Shown piece by piece: positions 8,222-47,801 of a stretch of 64,000 nt of DNA. The notes under the pieces were generated by a model. That model was not told the DNA's origin, did no database searches, and was given only the letters and a program-made list of their open reading frames with translations. The position numbers were made by a program, and so were the translations under genes. The stretch covers positions 1-64,000 of IMG/VR virus record IMGVR_UViG_3300021180_000006; one strand, 5' to 3'. This stretch comes from a virus. Numbering within the stretch: position 1 is the stretch's first letter; each line of letters begins with the position of its first letter.

Positions 8222-8956
8222 ATGCAACTCCTCACCGTCCTCAATCAATCCGGCGGCTGCGGCAAGACGACGGCGGCGGTGCATTTGGCCTGCTGGCTGG
8301 CCGAGCGGAATGCCAATGTCGCCTTCATCGACGCCGATCCGCAAGCGCGGAGCACCCACTGGCTCAAACGCGCCGCCCCGGGAATCCTCTGCCTGCCGGC
8401 GATCGAAGCGGGCGAGGTGCACGACGCCGTCGAACGTCTCAAAGCGGGGGATGACCTCACCGTGATCGCCGATGCCAAGCCGGGACTGGACGGGGCGGCG
8501 CTCGAGCTTTTGAAACTGTCCGATCGCGTCTACATGCCCATCGTCCCCAGCGAGATCAATCTCGATTCGACCGCTCAGGCCCTGGCGACGATGAAGGCGC
8601 TGGAGGTGCGCAAGCCGGTGGTGCTGTATCTGTCGATCGTCGATCCCGGCGGGGAAGCCACGCGGGCGCGATTGAGACTGGCGGAATTGGCTCGCGAGTC
8701 GGGGGGGCCCGGCGTCACGGCTGCGGCGGCGTCGATCGGCAGACGGATGGTCTTTCGCGCCGCCTACTCGCACGGAACCGTCGCCTGGCGGATGAAGGCC
8801 GTGTCGTCGTCGTGGTCGAATCCGGCCAAGCTCGCCTGTGCCGAACTGGACGCCCTGTTTACGGAGATCCTGCCCCATGGAATCCTCGCAATCGATCGCC
8901 CCGCCGCCTCTGCCTCTGACCTCCAGGACGCTGACCGCTACCACGTCGCTGCCTGA
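8222..8956 (+). CDS. parA: ParA-type partition ATPase
   Basis: 244 aa from ATG 8222. The N-terminus holds the Walker A motif QSGGCGKTT (residues 9-17) and FIDADPQ a little later, as in ParA/MinD-family ATPases that position plasmid or phage DNA on the nucleoid. The usual signature lysine of the deviant Walker A motif (KGGxxKTT) is replaced by Ser10, so either this is a divergent ParA or ATP-dimer chemistry differs. Size matches small ParA proteins without an N-terminal HTH. The next gene, overlapping by 80 bases, encodes an RHH-like partner, as in ParA-ParG type systems. Confidence 0.85.
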   Translation: MQLLTVLNQSGGCGKTTAAVHLACWLAERNANVAFIDADPQARSTHWLKRAAPGILCLPAIEAGEVHDAVERLKAGDDLTVIADAKPGLDGAALELLKLSDRVYMPIVPSEINLDSTAQALATMKALEVRKPVVLYLSIVDPGGEATRARLRLAELARESGGPGVTAAAASIGRRMVFRAAYSHGTVAWRMKAVSSSWSNPAKLACAELDALFTEILPHGILAIDRPAASASDLQDADRYHVAA

Positions 8957-12049: not shown

Positions 12050-13385
12050 AGGCCGCCGTCCAGACGGCATCGACCAATTCGCGGAGCCGGTCGAGCCCGA
12101 GGTGTTCGAGATAGTTTTCGACGAGAACGGAATCGTTTTGGTGCCCCATGACAATCTCAACTTCCTCCCGATAACCCGGCGGGGCCAGGTTGGGAAAGGT
12201 CGTGCGCAGCGAGCGGAACCCGCGGCCATCGGCATCGCCGCTGAATTTGATCCGCCGCCGTCTCGATCCCTGCCTCATCGTGTTTTCGATGACGATCGGC
12301 TTCTGTCGCAACCCGGCCCGCTCGCTCAAGCGCCGCCAGCGCTGCGAGAGGGCGTCGATGGCATTGGACAAACCCGGCCGCGCCAAACTTGCCTTGAGCC
12401 GGATCAGCGGCAGCCCGTTGCTGGTCAGAAAAAACAACTCGCCGTTGCTGTTGGTGCCGTCGCCGTTGTCTGCCGCTTGATTGGCATCCGCTCCATTGGC
12501 CCTTTGCGGCCGTTGGTATTTCTTGAGCAGCTTGAGCAGCTCGGGGCGCATGGGGATGACCCGGCGCACCTTCCCCTCTTTGCGGCGCCGGTAGTCGATG
12601 ACGCCGCGCTCCCAGTCGATCAGGTGCGACGAGAAGTTGGCGATGTCGCTGTTGTCCATGGCCCCGTTGATCCCCAGGGCGATCCACAGGCGCTCGGTAT
12701 CGTCCGCGTTTTTCCACAGGGCCTGGATCTCCGCCGGGGTGTAGCTCTTGATGATGCTCAGCCGGCGGTCGCGATGACGCTGCTGGCTGGGGCGCTTGAA
12801 GAACGTCCCGAACTTGGGCACGGTTTCCAGAAGATCGTCCTCGACGCACCAGCGGAAAAAGGCGCGGAGATAGGCGACGTGCCGGGCCAGAACGCAGGGG
12901 GCGCAGCCGATCAGCGTCTTGGCATATTGCGTGAAGTCGCCGGCGCCCATTTCCGCGATAGGTCGGTCGGCGCCGACGCACTTGCCGAAGCGGCTCAGGG
13001 TGCGGATGTAGTCGGCCCGCGTCACCGGGGCCAGCGACCGCGGCGTGCCGTGCTTGACGCGATGATCGAGGTAGTCAAAGAACCGGGCGGCGGCCTGGCG
13101 AAGCGTCGCCGTTCCCAGCGTGGCGATGGCGTCGGCCGAGCGCTCGAGGTTGGCGTCGATCTCTTTGCGGAGCGATTCCCACACGCCTTCGACCTCGTCC
13201 GGCGCCGTCTTGCGTCCACAGACGAAGCGCGTGCGGTCGAGATACCAGCGAACGTAACCGTCCCGCGTGAGAGAGAAGGTCGCGAGCAAACGCTGGCGAA
13301 GCCCGGCGTGCATCGGGGCCGCGTCAAACCAGTCGGGGACGTGCTTGTGGGGAACGGGCTGGTCGGGCCTGGGCATGCCGCCCAT
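11961..13385 (-). CDS. int: tyrosine recombinase / phage integrase (planctomycete-type)
   Basis: 474 aa. N-terminal SAM-like DNA-binding domain (RDGYVRWYLDRTRFVCGR about 40-60, core-binding about 90-190) and C-terminal catalytic domain. Identifiable motifs are GRGFRSLRTTF (box II Arg region), VMGHQND and NYLEH, with the nucleophile at about Tyr425. The first catalytic Arg is not at its usual place: GINGAMDNSDIANF stands where GLRxxEL is normal, and the H of HxLR is Arg. This departure is known from a large recombinase group in planctomycetes. It probably catalyses integration at the tRNA-Phe site whose 3' end lies just upstream (13467-13508). Very basic C-terminal tail. Confidence 0.88.
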   Translation of the reverse strand: MGGMPRPDQPVPHKHVPDWFDAAPMHAGLRQRLLATFSLTRDGYVRWYLDRTRFVCGRKTAPDEVEGVWESLRKEIDANLERSADAIATLGTATLRQAAARFFDYLDHRVKHGTPRSLAPVTRADYIRTLSRFGKCVGADRPIAEMGAGDFTQYAKTLIGCAPCVLARHVAYLRAFFRWCVEDDLLETVPKFGTFFKRPSQQRHRDRRLSIIKSYTPAEIQALWKNADDTERLWIALGINGAMDNSDIANFSSHLIDWERGVIDYRRRKEGKVRRVIPMRPELLKLLKKYQRPQRANGADANQAADNGDGTNSNGELFFLTSNGLPLIRLKASLARPGLSNAIDALSQRWRRLSERAGLRQKPIVIENTMRQGSRRRRIKFSGDADGRGFRSLRTTFPNLAPPGYREEVEIVMGHQNDSVLVENYLEHLGLDRLRELVDAVWTAAFTSPPRRDAKPKKPKKPAASGGGRKRRRA

Positions 13386-13651
13386 TATGGTTTTGCCTTA
13401 TGGTTACGGCAAGTTCTGCGGGATTCCCCTTGTTTTTCCGCTTCAATCGCACGGATGACCGGGGGGCTGAAAATCCATGTGTCGGCGGTTCAATTCCGCC
13501 CCTACCCAGTCCCCTGCGGACCGCACCATAACCGTGAATTTACCGCCTATTTCTTCACTTCGTCGCCATCGGGCGAGATGCGCAGAACTGCGCCAAAAAG
13601 TCCAAACCCTGCGCTAACAAAGGGCGGCTCACATTATGGTTTCCTTATGGG
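13385..13651. promoter_or_regulatory. attP arm region with repeated TTATGGT boxes
   Basis: TTATGGT occurs at 13385-13391, 13398-13404, inverted at 13525-13531, at 13634-13640, and as TTATGGG at 13645-13651, that is, on both sides of the tRNA fragment. Pairs of boxes spaced by 11-13 bases (one helical turn) are what arm-type integrase binding sites look like. The first pair overlaps the integrase start, so integrase binding could autoregulate. No gene is supported in 13386-13763. Confidence 0.6.
13467..13508 (+). other. tRNA-Phe 3'-end fragment (attP core)
   Basis: From the anticodon loop CTGAAAA (anticodon GAA) through half-stem TCCAT, variable loop GTGTC (identical to that of bacterial tRNA-Phe), a perfect T-arm GGCGG-TTCAATT-CCGCC, and acceptor strand CCTACCC plus discriminator A. 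The 5' half of the tRNA is absent: no GGGTAGG is found upstream and the bases before CTGAAAA do not pair with TCCAT. It is therefore not a functional tRNA but the part a phage carries to restore the host gene after insertion. Confidence 0.8.
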
Positions 13652-13946
13652 AAACCGTCCCCAAGCTGCTCATGCATTCCGGAAAGTAGGTGCTCGTCAG
13701 CGCCGGGAAATGCCCTCCCGGCGACGTTCTCCTGTCGGTGTGTCTGCCGATGGGAGCCTCACCATGGCGGAGATTCCCACCTCCGCCCGCAACGCTTCCG
13801 CTGGTCCGCGCCCTGATCCCTCCGACCTTCCCCTACCTGAATCGACGGGCAACTCGTGTCCCCCGAGACCCGTCATCCTACCCTGGTCGGAATTCAACGC
13901 CGGGCTGGCGGAAGCGCGTATTTTTACCCGCAAAGGAAGTCAAGTC

Positions 13947-14456
13947 ATGAAAGACCCACAGAATCTCCAGCGCATCACTCTCCAGCGTATCACCGTGGCC
14001 TACAACCGATCGGCCAATGGCCCTGGTCCCTTCGATGTTTCGGAAGTCAACTCGCGGCCGGGCATCGGTTATTTCGGACAGGTCGATCATCCCGAGCGCG
14101 CCGATCGCTTCAATTGGTTCTGCCATCACTTCACCGCGCCGATCATGCTCGTCGACGTCGTCTTTGAGACCTTCCCCGGCTTTCGTTACGGCTGTCTGGA
14201 AACCGGCGTTCTCGGCTTCGCCACCGGCGCCATGATCGACCCGCCTGATTTCGGCGGACAGCCGGCCATCGCCATCAAGTTCGACGGAGAACATTTCGTC
14301 CGAAGGGACGACGGTCACGTCCTCACCCGCTGCCGGCGCTTGCTGCTGACTCCCAAAGGCGCTTATGCCGATCTGGCGGAGCCTGCGCCACAGACCGAAC
14401 GCCATGTCGAACATCGCATCGAACGGGTCCATGCCGAGCTGGCGTCGGGGCGGTAA
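13947..14456 (+). CDS. hypothetical protein (169 aa)
   Basis: ATG 13947 with AAGGA 8 bases upstream; an in-frame ATG at 13764 would add 61 less protein-like residues. Starts MKDPQNLQRITLQRITVAYN; the LQRIT unit is repeated. The rest reads as a beta-rich globular domain. First gene of the long rightward early block. No family recognised. Confidence 0.65.
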   Translation: MKDPQNLQRITLQRITVAYNRSANGPGPFDVSEVNSRPGIGYFGQVDHPERADRFNWFCHHFTAPIMLVDVVFETFPGFRYGCLETGVLGFATGAMIDPPDFGGQPAIAIKFDGEHFVRRDDGHVLTRCRRLLLTPKGAYADLAEPAPQTERHVEHRIERVHAELASGR

Positions 14457-17775: not shown

Positions 17776-18065
17776 TCCACCCCGACTCCCCAGCCCTGCA
17801 CTACCGCTCCCCGCACTACCCGGCTGTCTTCAACGGCATGGTCCCCTCGAAGATCAGGATGAGACAGACGGTGAGGGTCGATCCCGGATTGCTGCTGGCG
17901 CGGCCGGAGTTGAAGGACACGATCGCCTACTGCGGCGAATTGTACGACGTGTGGGTCAACAGCCATGGGGCGGTTGCGGCGGTGTTGCCCGATGGAGGGC
18001 AGCTTGGGGTGAAGCCGGGGGAATTTGAAGTGGTGGAGTTCTATCGAGGGGAGGCGATCGCTTGA
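17772..18065 (+). CDS. hypothetical protein (97 aa)
   Basis: Coupled by ATGA to both neighbours. N-terminus contains HYRSPHYPAVFNG; the rest is beta-rich and ends GVKPGEFEVVEFYRGEAIA. Placed directly before the DNA methyltransferase. No family recognised. Confidence 0.65.
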   Translation: MIHPDSPALHYRSPHYPAVFNGMVPSKIRMRQTVRVDPGLLLARPELKDTIAYCGELYDVWVNSHGAVAAVLPDGGQLGVKPGEFEVVEFYRGEAIA

Positions 18066-19705
18066 AAAACCTTGAATCCGCGATTCTGACGACGCGCCAC
18101 GGAGCGCAGCTCAACGCCGGCATGTTCGATGAGATGATCGTCGATAATTTCGCGGGCGCGGGCGGGGCTTCCATGGGCATCGAGGCTGCGGTCGGGCGCG
18201 CCGTCGACGTCGCCATCAATCACGACCAGCACTCGATCGCGATGCACCAGATCAACCATCCGAACACGCTGCACCTGTGCGAGGATGTTTGGAACGTCGA
18301 TCCGGTTCAGGCGACGGCCGGCCGGCAAGTCGGACTCGCCTGGTTCAGCCCCGATTGCCGGCATTTTTCCCGGGCCAAGGGAGGCAAGCCGGTCGAGAAA
18401 AAGATTCGCGGATTGGCGTGGGTCGTCATCCGCTGGGCAAGATTGGTGTCGCCCCGGTTGATCGTTCTGGAGAACGTCCGCGAGTTTCAGGAATGGGGTC
18501 CCTTGCGGTCGGACAATACTCCGTGCCCGAAACGCAAGGGCAGCACGTTCAAGAGTTTCGTCACCCGCCTGCGCAATCTCGGATACGTCGTCGAGCACCG
18601 CATTCTGAACGCCGCGGACTTCGGCGCGCCGACGCACCGCCGCCGGCTGTTCCTGATCGCGCGACGCGACGGGGTTCAAATCCAATGGCCCGAGCCGACG
18701 TACGGCCCCGGTCGTAAACATCGCTACCGAACCGCAGCGAGCTGCATCGACTGGTCGCTTCCCTGCCCGAGTATTTTCCTGACTCGCGCCGAAGCCAGAA
18801 TCCTGCGCATCATCCGGCCCCTGGCCGACAAGACCATGCGGCGCATCGCGATGGGCATCAAGCGCTACGTTCTGGATAATCCCAAGCCGTTCATCGTCAC
18901 TTGCAATCACGGCGGCCCGGAATTTCGCGGCCAGTCAGTCGATGATCCGTTCAAGACGGTGACGGGATCGCGGGATGCGCATGGACTTGTGCTGCCCTTC
19001 CTCGCCGCCAATTACGGCGAAGCGCCTCACCAGGAGACCCGTGGCCAGAAGGTTGACGAGCCGCTGCGAACCGTCACGCCATCGAACAACGCGGGTGTCC
19101 TGATCGCGCCCACCGTCATCCAATACGCTGCGAAACCCCGACCGATTGACGAGCCGGCCGGCGTCGTGATGACGGAGAATCACCAGGCGCTCGCTACGGC
19201 GTTTATCGCCAAGCATTACGGCGGAGTCGTCGGCCATGCCCCGGATCGCCCCATCGGCACTATCACGGCCGTCGATCATCACAGCGTCGTCGCTTCGCAT
19301 TTGACAAAGTTCTACGGGACCAACGTCGGCGCGGATGTGCGCGAGCCAATGCCTACGGTGACGGCGGACGGAAACCACGTTGGCGAGGTCCGTGCGTTCC
19401 TTATCAAATACTTCGGCTGCGGTTGTGGGCAACAATGCGTTGAACCACTTCACACGGTCACGGGGCGCGACCGCTTCGGGCTGGTGACGATCGACGGCCA
19501 GGATTTCCAGATCATCGACATCGGCTTGCGCATGCTCAATCCCCACGAGTTGCTCCGCGCCCAGTTTGGAAAATATGCCGAAGGCTACATCCTTCTCGGC
19601 ACCAAAGCGCAACAGGTCGCGCGAATCGGCAACAGCGTGCCACCTGAACTGGCCGAGGCCGTCGTTCGCGCCAACTACTGCGCCGAAATCGAGGTCGCAG
19701 CATGA
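18062..19705 (+). CDS. DNA (cytosine-5) methyltransferase with repeat-containing recognition region
   Basis: 547 aa. Motif I DNFAGAGGASMGIE (about 28-41, SAM site), motif IV SPDCRHFS with catalytic Cys99 (SPDC instead of the usual PPCQ), motif VI ENVREF, motif VIII GAPTHRRRLFLIA and motif X ARIGNSVPPELAEA at the C-terminus. Between motifs VIII and X, residues about 285-480 consist of five divergent copies of a ~40-residue unit containing PxxTVT or PxxTIT plus DxHGLV-like text, where the target recognition domain belongs. SPDC(K/R)HFS enzymes form a phage subgroup. Probably protects phage DNA from host restriction; no cognate endonuclease is adjacent. Confidence 0.92.
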   Translation: MKNLESAILTTRHGAQLNAGMFDEMIVDNFAGAGGASMGIEAAVGRAVDVAINHDQHSIAMHQINHPNTLHLCEDVWNVDPVQATAGRQVGLAWFSPDCRHFSRAKGGKPVEKKIRGLAWVVIRWARLVSPRLIVLENVREFQEWGPLRSDNTPCPKRKGSTFKSFVTRLRNLGYVVEHRILNAADFGAPTHRRRLFLIARRDGVQIQWPEPTYGPGRKHRYRTAASCIDWSLPCPSIFLTRAEARILRIIRPLADKTMRRIAMGIKRYVLDNPKPFIVTCNHGGPEFRGQSVDDPFKTVTGSRDAHGLVLPFLAANYGEAPHQETRGQKVDEPLRTVTPSNNAGVLIAPTVIQYAAKPRPIDEPAGVVMTENHQALATAFIAKHYGGVVGHAPDRPIGTITAVDHHSVVASHLTKFYGTNVGADVREPMPTVTADGNHVGEVRAFLIKYFGCGCGQQCVEPLHTVTGRDRFGLVTIDGQDFQIIDIGLRMLNPHELLRAQFGKYAEGYILLGTKAQQVARIGNSVPPELAEAVVRANYCAEIEVAA

Positions 19706-28422: not shown

Positions 28423-29484
28423 GTGCCACGACGCGCTTCGCCGCAGATCGATTTTCATGCGCTCGATTGGGTCGATGACTCGTTCGAGCTTTGCGGGTTT
28501 CAGTTGCAGATGCGCCTTTTAATGCTCAACCCGGACCGTCCCGGCTACCTGCCGACCCACCGTTGCGCTGACAACGACGAATTCGTGGCCCGAAAATTCG
28601 GGACCGACGTCGCCACGGTCGCAGCCCAGGTTCGCGCACTAAGTCAACGGGGCCTACTGGCGTTCAGCGACACTGGCCTTCTGCACGATCCGCAGATCCT
28701 CGCCCAGTTCATCGGGCAACAGAGGATTGATCGGGATCGAGACGCCGTCGCCGCCCGCGTCCGCCGCCATCGCGAAAACAAAGCGTTACGTAACGCGTTA
28801 CATCCACCGTTACGTAACGCGTTACATGCGGCGCAACGTCCCCCGCCCCCTGGCCCTTTCCCCCCCCCCACTCCCCCCTTACCCCAAACCCCTTCCCCCG
28901 AGGTTGCTGCGCAACCTTGCGTCGGCGTTCCGCCGATCGCGGGAAACGCGCAAACGCCAGCCGCGGAAGGGCAAAAGCCGCAAACCAGATCGCGAGCGGC
29001 GATCGGGGCGATGCACCGCAAACTCGATGGCGAGGTGAGCGAATACCGCACGTTGACCGACCACTGGTGTCTGCGCAAGCGCGAGCGGATTCCCGGTTAT
29101 GTCTTCACCAAACGCGACGGCGCAATTTTTGCGCAGATCTGGGAGCGGATCGGCGGCAAGACGGCGGCGCGGCCGGCGGAAAACCAGATGGCGTTGCCGG
29201 TGGGCAAGCTGCTGATCGACCTGTTCTTCGGCGATTCCATGCTCCGCGGCCACGACATCCGCACTCTCGCGCACGATCTGGATCATTATCTCGAACGGGC
29301 CTCGCGCCCGGATGGAGCGAAGCATGTCCTCAATGCCCGAGCAAAACCGACCGCCGCCCAGCGCGGAGAATACGCCAGCGATGTCCCCATCATCGTCCAC
29401 GGCTATGGAGGTCAACGTGCAGCGTCCGAGCCTCAAGGAAAGACTGCGGCGGCTGATCGCGCAAAAGACCGAGCGACCGCCTGA
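28423..29484 (+). CDS. phage replication initiator / replisome organiser (353 aa)
   Basis: GTG start at 28423 close to the previous stop. The N-terminal domain (ALDWVDDSFELCGFQLQMRL, FVARKFGTDVATVAAQVRAL, RGLLAFSDTGLLHD) has the winged-helix pattern of phage replisome organisers. It is followed by a basic helix RVRRHRENKALRNALH, a Pro-rich linker (about 137-180) and a C-terminal domain. It is directly followed by a DnaC-like loader, as lambda O by P. The linker DNA carries two 20-bp palindromic repeats (28784-28827), so the replication origin probably lies inside the gene. Assignment is by architecture and context. Confidence 0.7.
   Translation: MPRRASPQIDFHALDWVDDSFELCGFQLQMRLLMLNPDRPGYLPTHRCADNDEFVARKFGTDVATVAAQVRALSQRGLLAFSDTGLLHDPQILAQFIGQQRIDRDRDAVAARVRRHRENKALRNALHPPLRNALHAAQRPPPPGPFPPPTPPLPQTPSPEVAAQPCVGVPPIAGNAQTPAAEGQKPQTRSRAAIGAMHRKLDGEVSEYRTLTDHWCLRKRERIPGYVFTKRDGAIFAQIWERIGGKTAARPAENQMALPVGKLLIDLFFGDSMLRGHDIRTLAHDLDHYLERASRPDGAKHVLNARAKPTAAQRGEYASDVPIIVHGYGGQRAASEPQGKTAAADRAKDRATA
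28784..28827 (+). repeat. iteron-like palindromic repeats, candidate replication origin
   Basis: Two identical copies of CGTTACGTAACGCGTTACAT at 28784-28803 and 28808-28827 (24-base period). Each holds the palindrome CGTTACGTAACG. They lie in the centre of the initiator gene, with an A-rich stretch (AAAACAAAG) before and a long C-rich tract after. Placement matches the iterons in lambda-type O genes. Confidence 0.7.
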
Positions 29485-30088
29485 ATCGGATGATCTCCGT
29501 CGCGAGCGCGAAGCCCGGCGGCGCATTGATGCACTGGCCCTGCGGCGCGCCAGCGGTATCGAACAGGAGAAAATGTTTCGCGAGGCCGAACTGCGACACC
29601 TCGATATCCGGTTGCCGGCGGAATTCCGGGCGCTGGCGGCGCGGCTTCATTCGCTGCTGGACCAGCCGGAATTGATCGCCATTGCCGGCGATCGCGGACG
29701 CGGCAAGACGTGGCTGGGCTGCGGATTGATAAACGCCTTCTGCGATGCCCTGCGCCCGGCCATCTATCGGCGGACAGCGCGATTCTTCGAGGAGCTTTCG
29801 ACCGCAGACTGGTCGGATAAGGAATGGGTCAGACGGAATTACGTGACGCCTGAATTACTGGTGCTGGACGAGGTTCAGGTGCGCGATGCCGATCGGGTTT
29901 GGCAGGACAACGAATTGACGACGTTGATCGACCGCCGCTATGCCCGCTGCTCCGCGACGCTTCTGCTGAGCAACTTCACCCCGGAAATGCTGGCCAACAA
30001 TCTTGGTGAGAGCATTCAGCGCCGGTTGAGCGAATCGGGCGGCACCTGGCCGACGCCGTGGCCCAGGATCAAGGAGATTCTGACGTGA
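29324..30088 (+). CDS. DnaC-like AAA+ helicase loader (254 aa)
   Basis: ATG 29324 has GGAG 6 bases upstream but overlaps the initiator gene by 161 bases; ATG 29405 is an alternative without a ribosome site. After a disordered N-terminus and a charged helical stretch come Walker [12 protein letters not shown] (Lys128), Walker [11 protein letters not shown], sensor I TLLLSNFT and Arg-finger region [13 protein letters not shown]. This order is characteristic of the DnaC/IstB branch that loads DnaB-type helicase at an origin. Context beside the initiator supports it. Confidence 0.85.
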
Positions 30089-46838: not shown

Positions 46839-47801
46839 CTAATTAAAAGTTAATGAATAGTCATCGTCTCCAGAAGTCCGGGTCGCAATAAACTCCAACG
46901 TGTCCGCCATCACGCCCTCGCGGTCCTCATCCTGCGGCGGGTTATTCAACTGCGCCTTGGGGGCGGAGAACTGGAGTTGGTTGCCCGCCGGGCCAGCGGT
47001 GAAGGCGAAGTTGTAGGTGGTCTGCGCGGTATGGGCCGCGAAAAAGTCCAGCGTCGAGAGCAGGTAGCTTTCCGGGGCAATACGGATTAGAGGCTCGCGA
47101 TCGGTGACGATGCCGCCGCGGAATCCGGTGCCGACCGGGGTGGAAGCGCTATCGACGGCGGATTGGTCCTGTCTCAGATAGAGCTTATTTCCCGAATGAA
47201 ACTCGAAATTGGGGAAGCGCATCGACTGGCCGCCCACCGTGACCGTCACTCCCGCGAAGCGCGGCGGAATCGTCGTCGGATAGGTAATGCCGCCGGGGAT
47301 GGCCGTCGTCGAAGGGCTCTGCCAGACGCCGTCGAAAGTCCACTCGAAATAGATTGGGTTCCCCGCCTGCGCCCGGATGACGAAGTCGCCAGCGCAACCG
47401 GCCAGGAGCTTCAAGCGCCCGGCCTGGAACAAACCGATCGAGATGGTGTTGATCGGGCTGGCCGGGGTGGGGGTGAAGGGAGAGAAGGGGCTGCTGGTGC
47501 CGGGACCCAAACCGCAAGCCGGCAGAAGCAAGCTGGCCCAGGCCGGGGCGCCGGCAGTGGAGAAGAACTCGGTGCGGAACGTCGCCTTGCCGGCGCGGGC
47601 GCCGGGGATGGTGAGCAGCTTGGAAAGATACTGCTGTCCCTGGCGGACATTGGGCTTGATGTCCGGGGTGATCTTGGGATCGAAGACGGCGCTGAACAGT
47701 TGGCAGTCGGAGCTGCCGGGCGTGACGACGACGCCGGTCGTAGCCTCGAGTTTTGCGCCGAAAACTCGGTTGCGTACTAACAAGTTTGGGTCGAACGCCA
47801 T
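46839..47801 (-). CDS. major tail (tube) protein candidate (320 aa)
   Basis: MAFDPNLLVRNRVFGAKLEA, followed by TPDIKPNVRQGQQYLSKLLT, GKATFRTEFFSTAGAPAWAS and NPIYFEWTFDGVWQSPSTTA: the layout of phage tail tube proteins, which begin with a strand-rich domain containing GxKxE and keep a conserved FxGxW-like strand. A Pro/Ser/Thr loop lies near residue 105-115. Position immediately before the G/G-T genes (with an HNH insertion) strongly supports it. Confidence 0.75.
   Translation of the reverse strand: MAFDPNLLVRNRVFGAKLEATTGVVVTPGSSDCQLFSAVFDPKITPDIKPNVRQGQQYLSKLLTIPGARAGKATFRTEFFSTAGAPAWASLLLPACGLGPGTSSPFSPFTPTPASPINTISIGLFQAGRLKLLAGCAGDFVIRAQAGNPIYFEWTFDGVWQSPSTTAIPGGITYPTTIPPRFAGVTVTVGGQSMRFPNFEFHSGNKLYLRQDQSAVDSASTPVGTGFRGGIVTDREPLIRIAPESYLLSTLDFFAAHTAQTTYNFAFTAGPAGNQLQFSAPKAQLNNPPQDEDREGVMADTLEFIATRTSGDDDYSLTFN

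Follow-up and report, generated by a model that had tools for sequence, protein, structure and literature searches.

A putative attP carrying a tRNA-Phe 3' half in a temperate phage, and its Arg I-less integrase subfamily, whose planctomycete members mostly use tRNA 5' halves

The tRNA gene is a familiar target of integrating elements, and the part of it that an element carries is strongly skewed: of the 3919 islands catalogued by Islander, where integrases are detected with the Pfam model PF00589, 3760 hold 3' tDNA fragments and 159 hold 5' fragments (PMC4383910). With very few bacterial exceptions, elements that integrate into tRNA genes are thought to leave control of the tRNA with its native promoter, and the use of a tRNA 5' half as attachment site, as practised by the archaeal pTN3-like integrases, is seldom seen in bacteria (PMC8371274). 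Integrases with unorthodox active sites have also been described. The first catalytic arginine (Arg I) is shifted or missing in IntDes and IntCTnDOT; in the CTnDOT Int another arginine, located downstream, takes over, and in IntDes, described from Desulfovibrio only, the box-II histidine is replaced by tyrosine (PMC8138268). Here we report on a locus that touches on both themes, found in a 64,000-nt stretch of viral DNA (the window) belonging to a linear record of 86,798 bp with no end repeats. The region very probably constitutes the attP of a temperate phage that would insert in the anticodon loop of a host tRNA-Phe gene.

The core of this site, CTGAAAATCCATGTGTCGGCGGTTCAATTCCGCCCCTACCCA, is 42 nt long and equates to positions 32-73 (C32 to A73) of tRNA-Phe(GAA), running from the anticodon loop to the discriminator. 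It comprises the anticodon loop CTGAAAA, the 3' strand of the anticodon stem, the variable loop GTGTC, a completely paired T arm (GGCGG-TTCAATT-CCGCC), the acceptor strand CCTACCC and the discriminator A. ARAGORN called no tRNA in the window, and Rfam returned no tRNA-family match at 13000-14000, just a weak tmRNA match beneath the T arm. A 5' half concealed before the core was considered and rejected: the preceding 31 nt agree with the tRNA-Phe 5' half at 10 of 31 positions, which is no better than shuffles (mean 8.1, maximum 15), and the 3' half is therefore present alone. Four copies of TTATGGT, at 13385 (+), 13398 (+), 13525 (-) and 13634 (+), fall on both sides of the core within 256 bp (13385-13640), where 1.42 would be expected in the entire 64 kb; the same four are the only copies in the 86,798-bp record, and the probability that four should occur by chance within that span is approximately 1e-7. 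A fifth, imperfect box (TTATGGG) lies at 13645. Their placement suggests that the boxes are putative arm sites of the integrase.

Phage-type genes with PHROG matches flank the core to left and right (Table 1), and a capsid-protease fusion is also encoded on the right. As host DNA on either flank is consequently unlikely, the site reads as an attP. The initial annotation had drawn the same picture, of an unintegrated attP rather than a prophage end, with a 42-nt tRNA-Phe fragment reaching from anticodon loop to discriminator just upstream of a tyrosine integrase, and with TTATGGT boxes and phage-type genes to either side. Each of these elements withstood scrutiny, the integrase start being 81 bp from the core, as did the expectation that the 3' half alone would be found. 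Separately, the presence of a ParA-like ATPase gene in an integrase-bearing phage may point to a plasmid-like maintenance stage.

Table 1. Coordinates of the attachment region and of selected phage-type genes in the window
Feature	Position	Strand	Evidence
ParA-like ATPase, integrase side of core	8222-8956	+	PHROG_164 4e-23; Pfam AAA_31/CbiA
Tyrosine integrase, 474 aa	11961-13385	-	PHROG_1, subfamily alignment, Foldseek
Arm-like direct repeat pair TTATGGT, 13-bp period, at integrase start codon	13385-13404	+	Motif positions
attP core (putative), 3' part of tRNA-Phe(GAA)	13467-13508	+	Sequence; comparison with planctomycete tRNA-Phe genes
Predicted 7-bp overlap, anticodon loop CTGAAAA	13467-13473	+	3' block start; 5' block ends in relatives
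Arm-like box TTATGGT, inverted, right of core	13525-13531	-	Motif position
Arm-like pair TTATGGT + TTATGGG, 11-bp period	13634-13651	+	Motif positions
Cytosine-C5 DNA methyltransferase, phage-type, opposite side of core	18062-19705	+	PHROG_116 4.8e-90; PF00145
DnaC-like helicase loader	29417-30088	+	PHROG_50 1.1e-19
Minor tail protein	46839-47801	-	PHROG_290 3.4e-10

The initial annotation further proposed that the element inserts into a host tRNA-Phe and rebuilds its 3' end, and suggested comparing the core with the tRNA-Phe genes of planctomycetes. The proposal is supported, with reservations. The closest planctomycete tRNA-Phe genes, drawn from 392 phylum-wide, 170 order and 398 class genomes, differ from the core at 2-3 of 42 positions, but the exact 42-mer was absent from the 392 phylum-wide and 398 class genomes, as well as from the genome_contigs collection (one genome for each of 84,980 species); nor did the search yield an integrated copy of the phage. 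The 25-nt T-arm/acceptor segment had no match in viral_contigs, and a relaxed pattern search matched in one Brocadiia MAG. Among individual genomes, the tRNA-Phe of G102 has its anticodon stem (TCCAT) in common with the core, that of G001 its acceptor (CCTACCCA), and that of G686 both, with a different T arm, such that every feature of the core is present among planctomycete tRNA-Phe genes. The phage host is probably a planctomycete. In G140, an intact tRNA-Phe adjoins a canonical tyrosine integrase (P0002), and a 3' fragment lies 58.8 kb away at the far end of the element (L050-L053; G140:C1:2284001-2349000). Since this element, which is unrelated to the window phage, occupies tRNA-Phe and has the same 3' block, the tRNA-Phe site is evidently usable in planctomycetes. 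A second planctomycete has a solitary 3' fragment of tRNA-Phe (L037; G154:C29, near 48530), which likely marks a further integration event.

The integrase matches the PHROG_1 integrase profile (3.2e-20), and its own profile also matches Xer and Int chains in the PDB; the structure model (pLDDT 70) finds lambda Int, Tn1549 Int and Xer structures at 1e-6 in Foldseek. Both the fold and the profile of a tyrosine recombinase are matched. Against Pfam, the protein gave at best a sub-threshold match, and the Phage_integrase model was not matched. Its catalytic R-K-H-R-H/W-Y set is incomplete: K269, R394, H415 and Y425 are kept, while Arg I is replaced by D244 and the box-II histidine by R391, and a further arginine, R267, stands two residues before the lysine (R267-x-K269). 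The loss of Arg I and of the box-II histidine means that activity is not assured; the loss or displacement of Arg I in IntDes and IntCTnDOT nevertheless indicates that a missing Arg I does not preclude it.

The missing Arg I is a property of the whole subfamily to which the protein belongs. A first phylum-wide search for relatives recovered chiefly ordinary Xer-like proteins, and direct integrase searches of phages, plasmids and viral_contigs produced no relatives; in viral contigs carrying relatives of the phage's capsid, many of which are fragments, no integrase relative was detectable. A motif served purely as a probe for the subfamily, sampled from planctomycete genomes and viral contigs, and the family was confirmed by independent matches of the window protein itself. 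Within one planctomycete order, 83 of 150 genomes have matches (E down to 1e-21), and 13 viral contigs encode members. Canonical Arg I is missing in all 74 aligned sequences, with glycine in 66 and aspartate in the window integrase, and an aspartate holds the next acidic position in 74/74. The box-II histidine is tyrosine in 63; the lysine is invariant, and the second arginine, the histidine and the tyrosine are almost invariant. An arginine two residues before the lysine (Lys-2) is likewise invariant (74/74), making it a candidate replacement for Arg I. By its alignment, the window integrase belongs to this planctomycete subfamily but is divergent, forming a long branch with at most 31% identity to its relatives, and its exact place within the subfamily is uncertain.

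The relatives share a characteristic attachment layout. In 46 of 70, ARAGORN placed an intact tRNA approximately 30-450 bp upstream of the integrase gene, on the opposite strand and with its 5' end toward the integrase; an intact tRNA was downstream in 2 of 71. Ten chromosomal elements on complete or long contigs were tested for the displaced counterpart; in eight of them the tRNA's 5' half, 39-44 nt in length, recurred at the far end of the element, 10-69 kb away and oriented as in the intact gene. Six of these halves are 100% identical to the tRNA (G301 and G411, 42 kb each; G163, 11 kb; G420, 25 kb; G407, 10 kb; and G317b, 69 kb), and those of G417 (11 kb) and G119 (16 kb) are 97.4 and 97.5% identical, respectively. 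In the remaining two (G428 and G317a) no displaced 5' half was found in the stretch fetched. Given a displaced 5' half at the far end, these eight elements carry the tRNA 5' half. Among viral members, L065, L066 and L068 have a 5' half alone next to the integrase gene. A 3' half alone, placed and oriented likewise, is found in the window phage, L067 and L069, and a 3' half facing in reverse in L071. No 3' half was seen in that place among the chromosomal relatives, and polarity does not clearly track the integrase tree. G433 encodes two related integrases (L116 and L119), one beside an intact tRNA-Met(CAT) and the other beside a tRNA-Met 5' half alone, whose 39 nt match a tRNA-Met in the set at 100%. 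Repeats recur as well: pairs at 8-13-bp spacing occupy both sides of the core in L065 and L069, as in the window, and L066 has a repeated motif on both sides. Family-wide, repeats were found upstream of the integrase in 29/63 cases and downstream in 20/63, a modest enrichment over the 9.9 expected from shuffles. GGTGTCA repeats upstream of the integrase in L066, L088, L132, L133, L135, L143, L144 and L149 are likely arm-type sites of many subfamily members.

Other origins for the window fragment deserve consideration. In a 3'-half mode of integration, a displaced 3' half beside the integrase is precisely what would be expected at attR, and the record is linear, so that the fragment might be conceived as the attR end of a prophage, host DNA then lying on the right; yet that side encodes a methyltransferase, a helicase loader, and tail and capsid proteins, and the same boxes occur on both sides of the core, rendering this origin highly improbable. 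The contig could instead be chromosomal and the site, although formally attP-like, a junction of two tandemly integrated related elements. Among the genes scanned, none was identified as a host gene, and we give this arrangement very little credence, notwithstanding that tRNA genes are known to harbour tandem arrays (PMC4383910) and that the linear contig is bigger than many temperate phages. It also seems quite unlikely that the fragment is a relic beside a degenerate or repurposed integrase, with the phage persisting as a plasmid via ParA. The ParA gene and the missing Arg I and box-II histidine would suit such a history; however, the whole subfamily is without Arg I, and its members are still found exactly at the ends of elements, where the tRNA halves match, and in the window the T-arm pairing of the core is full and the boxes are intact.

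On the reading we favour, in which the site serves a temperate phage as its attP, the integrase would bind core sites around the anticodon-loop sequence, together with the TTATGGT arm sites on either side, and would exchange strands within the part of the host tRNA-Phe gene that encodes the anticodon loop. With the window's 3' block beginning at nt 32 and the relatives' 5' blocks extending to nt 39-44, the interval they share covers the anticodon loop; from this we infer that strands are exchanged within the loop or at its border, and the exact points are predicted on the same basis. As the phage would provide nt 32-73, the host 5' half and phage 3' half would be joined at the integrase-distal end, yielding an intact tRNA-Phe that keeps its own promoter, and the displaced host 3' half would end up beside the integrase gene. 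Most integrated relatives employ the same layout with the 5' half, the rebuilt tRNA then adjoining the integrase gene with element DNA upstream. We consider it likely that this large planctomycete subfamily, with its rearranged active site, routinely replaces the tRNA 5' half and promoter region, through a layout that can switch polarity.

The window attP is a further case of the common 3' class, and its integrase subfamily is mostly of the opposite kind. The Arg I-less subfamily, and the tRNA-5'-half polarity in most of its members, are new here; the initial annotation had missed both the absence of the first catalytic arginine and the fact that chromosomal relatives mostly rebuild the tRNA 5' half. 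If the proposed exchange is correct, then tRNA expression is put under element DNA, and a common planctomycete subfamily mostly doing the reverse of the usual would provide a natural system in which to ask what drives a tRNA gene. As either tRNA half can occupy one layout, polarity becomes comparable within a single subfamily. Further, the window integrase is unmatched by PF00589, and elements of this type may be under-counted if its relatives behave alike.

Set against the described systems, the window attP resembles Islander class A, the anticodon-loop class (PMC4383910), in its tDNA fragment and adjacent tyrosine integrase, and most Islander islands (3760/3919) in that its block is the 3' half, from anticodon loop to tRNA end. 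It departs from class A in an integrase without Arg I that the Pfam Phage_integrase model does not match, and from the Islander majority in that the chromosomal relatives of this integrase mostly use the 5' half, as do 159/3919 islands. In that habit, and in the rebuilt tRNA beside the integrase, most of the subfamily is like the archaeal pTN3-like integrases, whereas the window phage is of the 3'-half kind. The window integrase shares with lambda Int and Tn1549 Int the overall fold, the CAT domain and the K, second R, H and Y, but has no arginine at box I and 13-17% sequence identity to them. Compared by description rather than sequence, the subfamily resembles IntDes and IntCTnDOT in lacking the canonical Arg I, and IntDes in the change from box-II histidine to tyrosine in most relatives; unlike IntDes of Desulfovibrio, it is planctomycete and viral.
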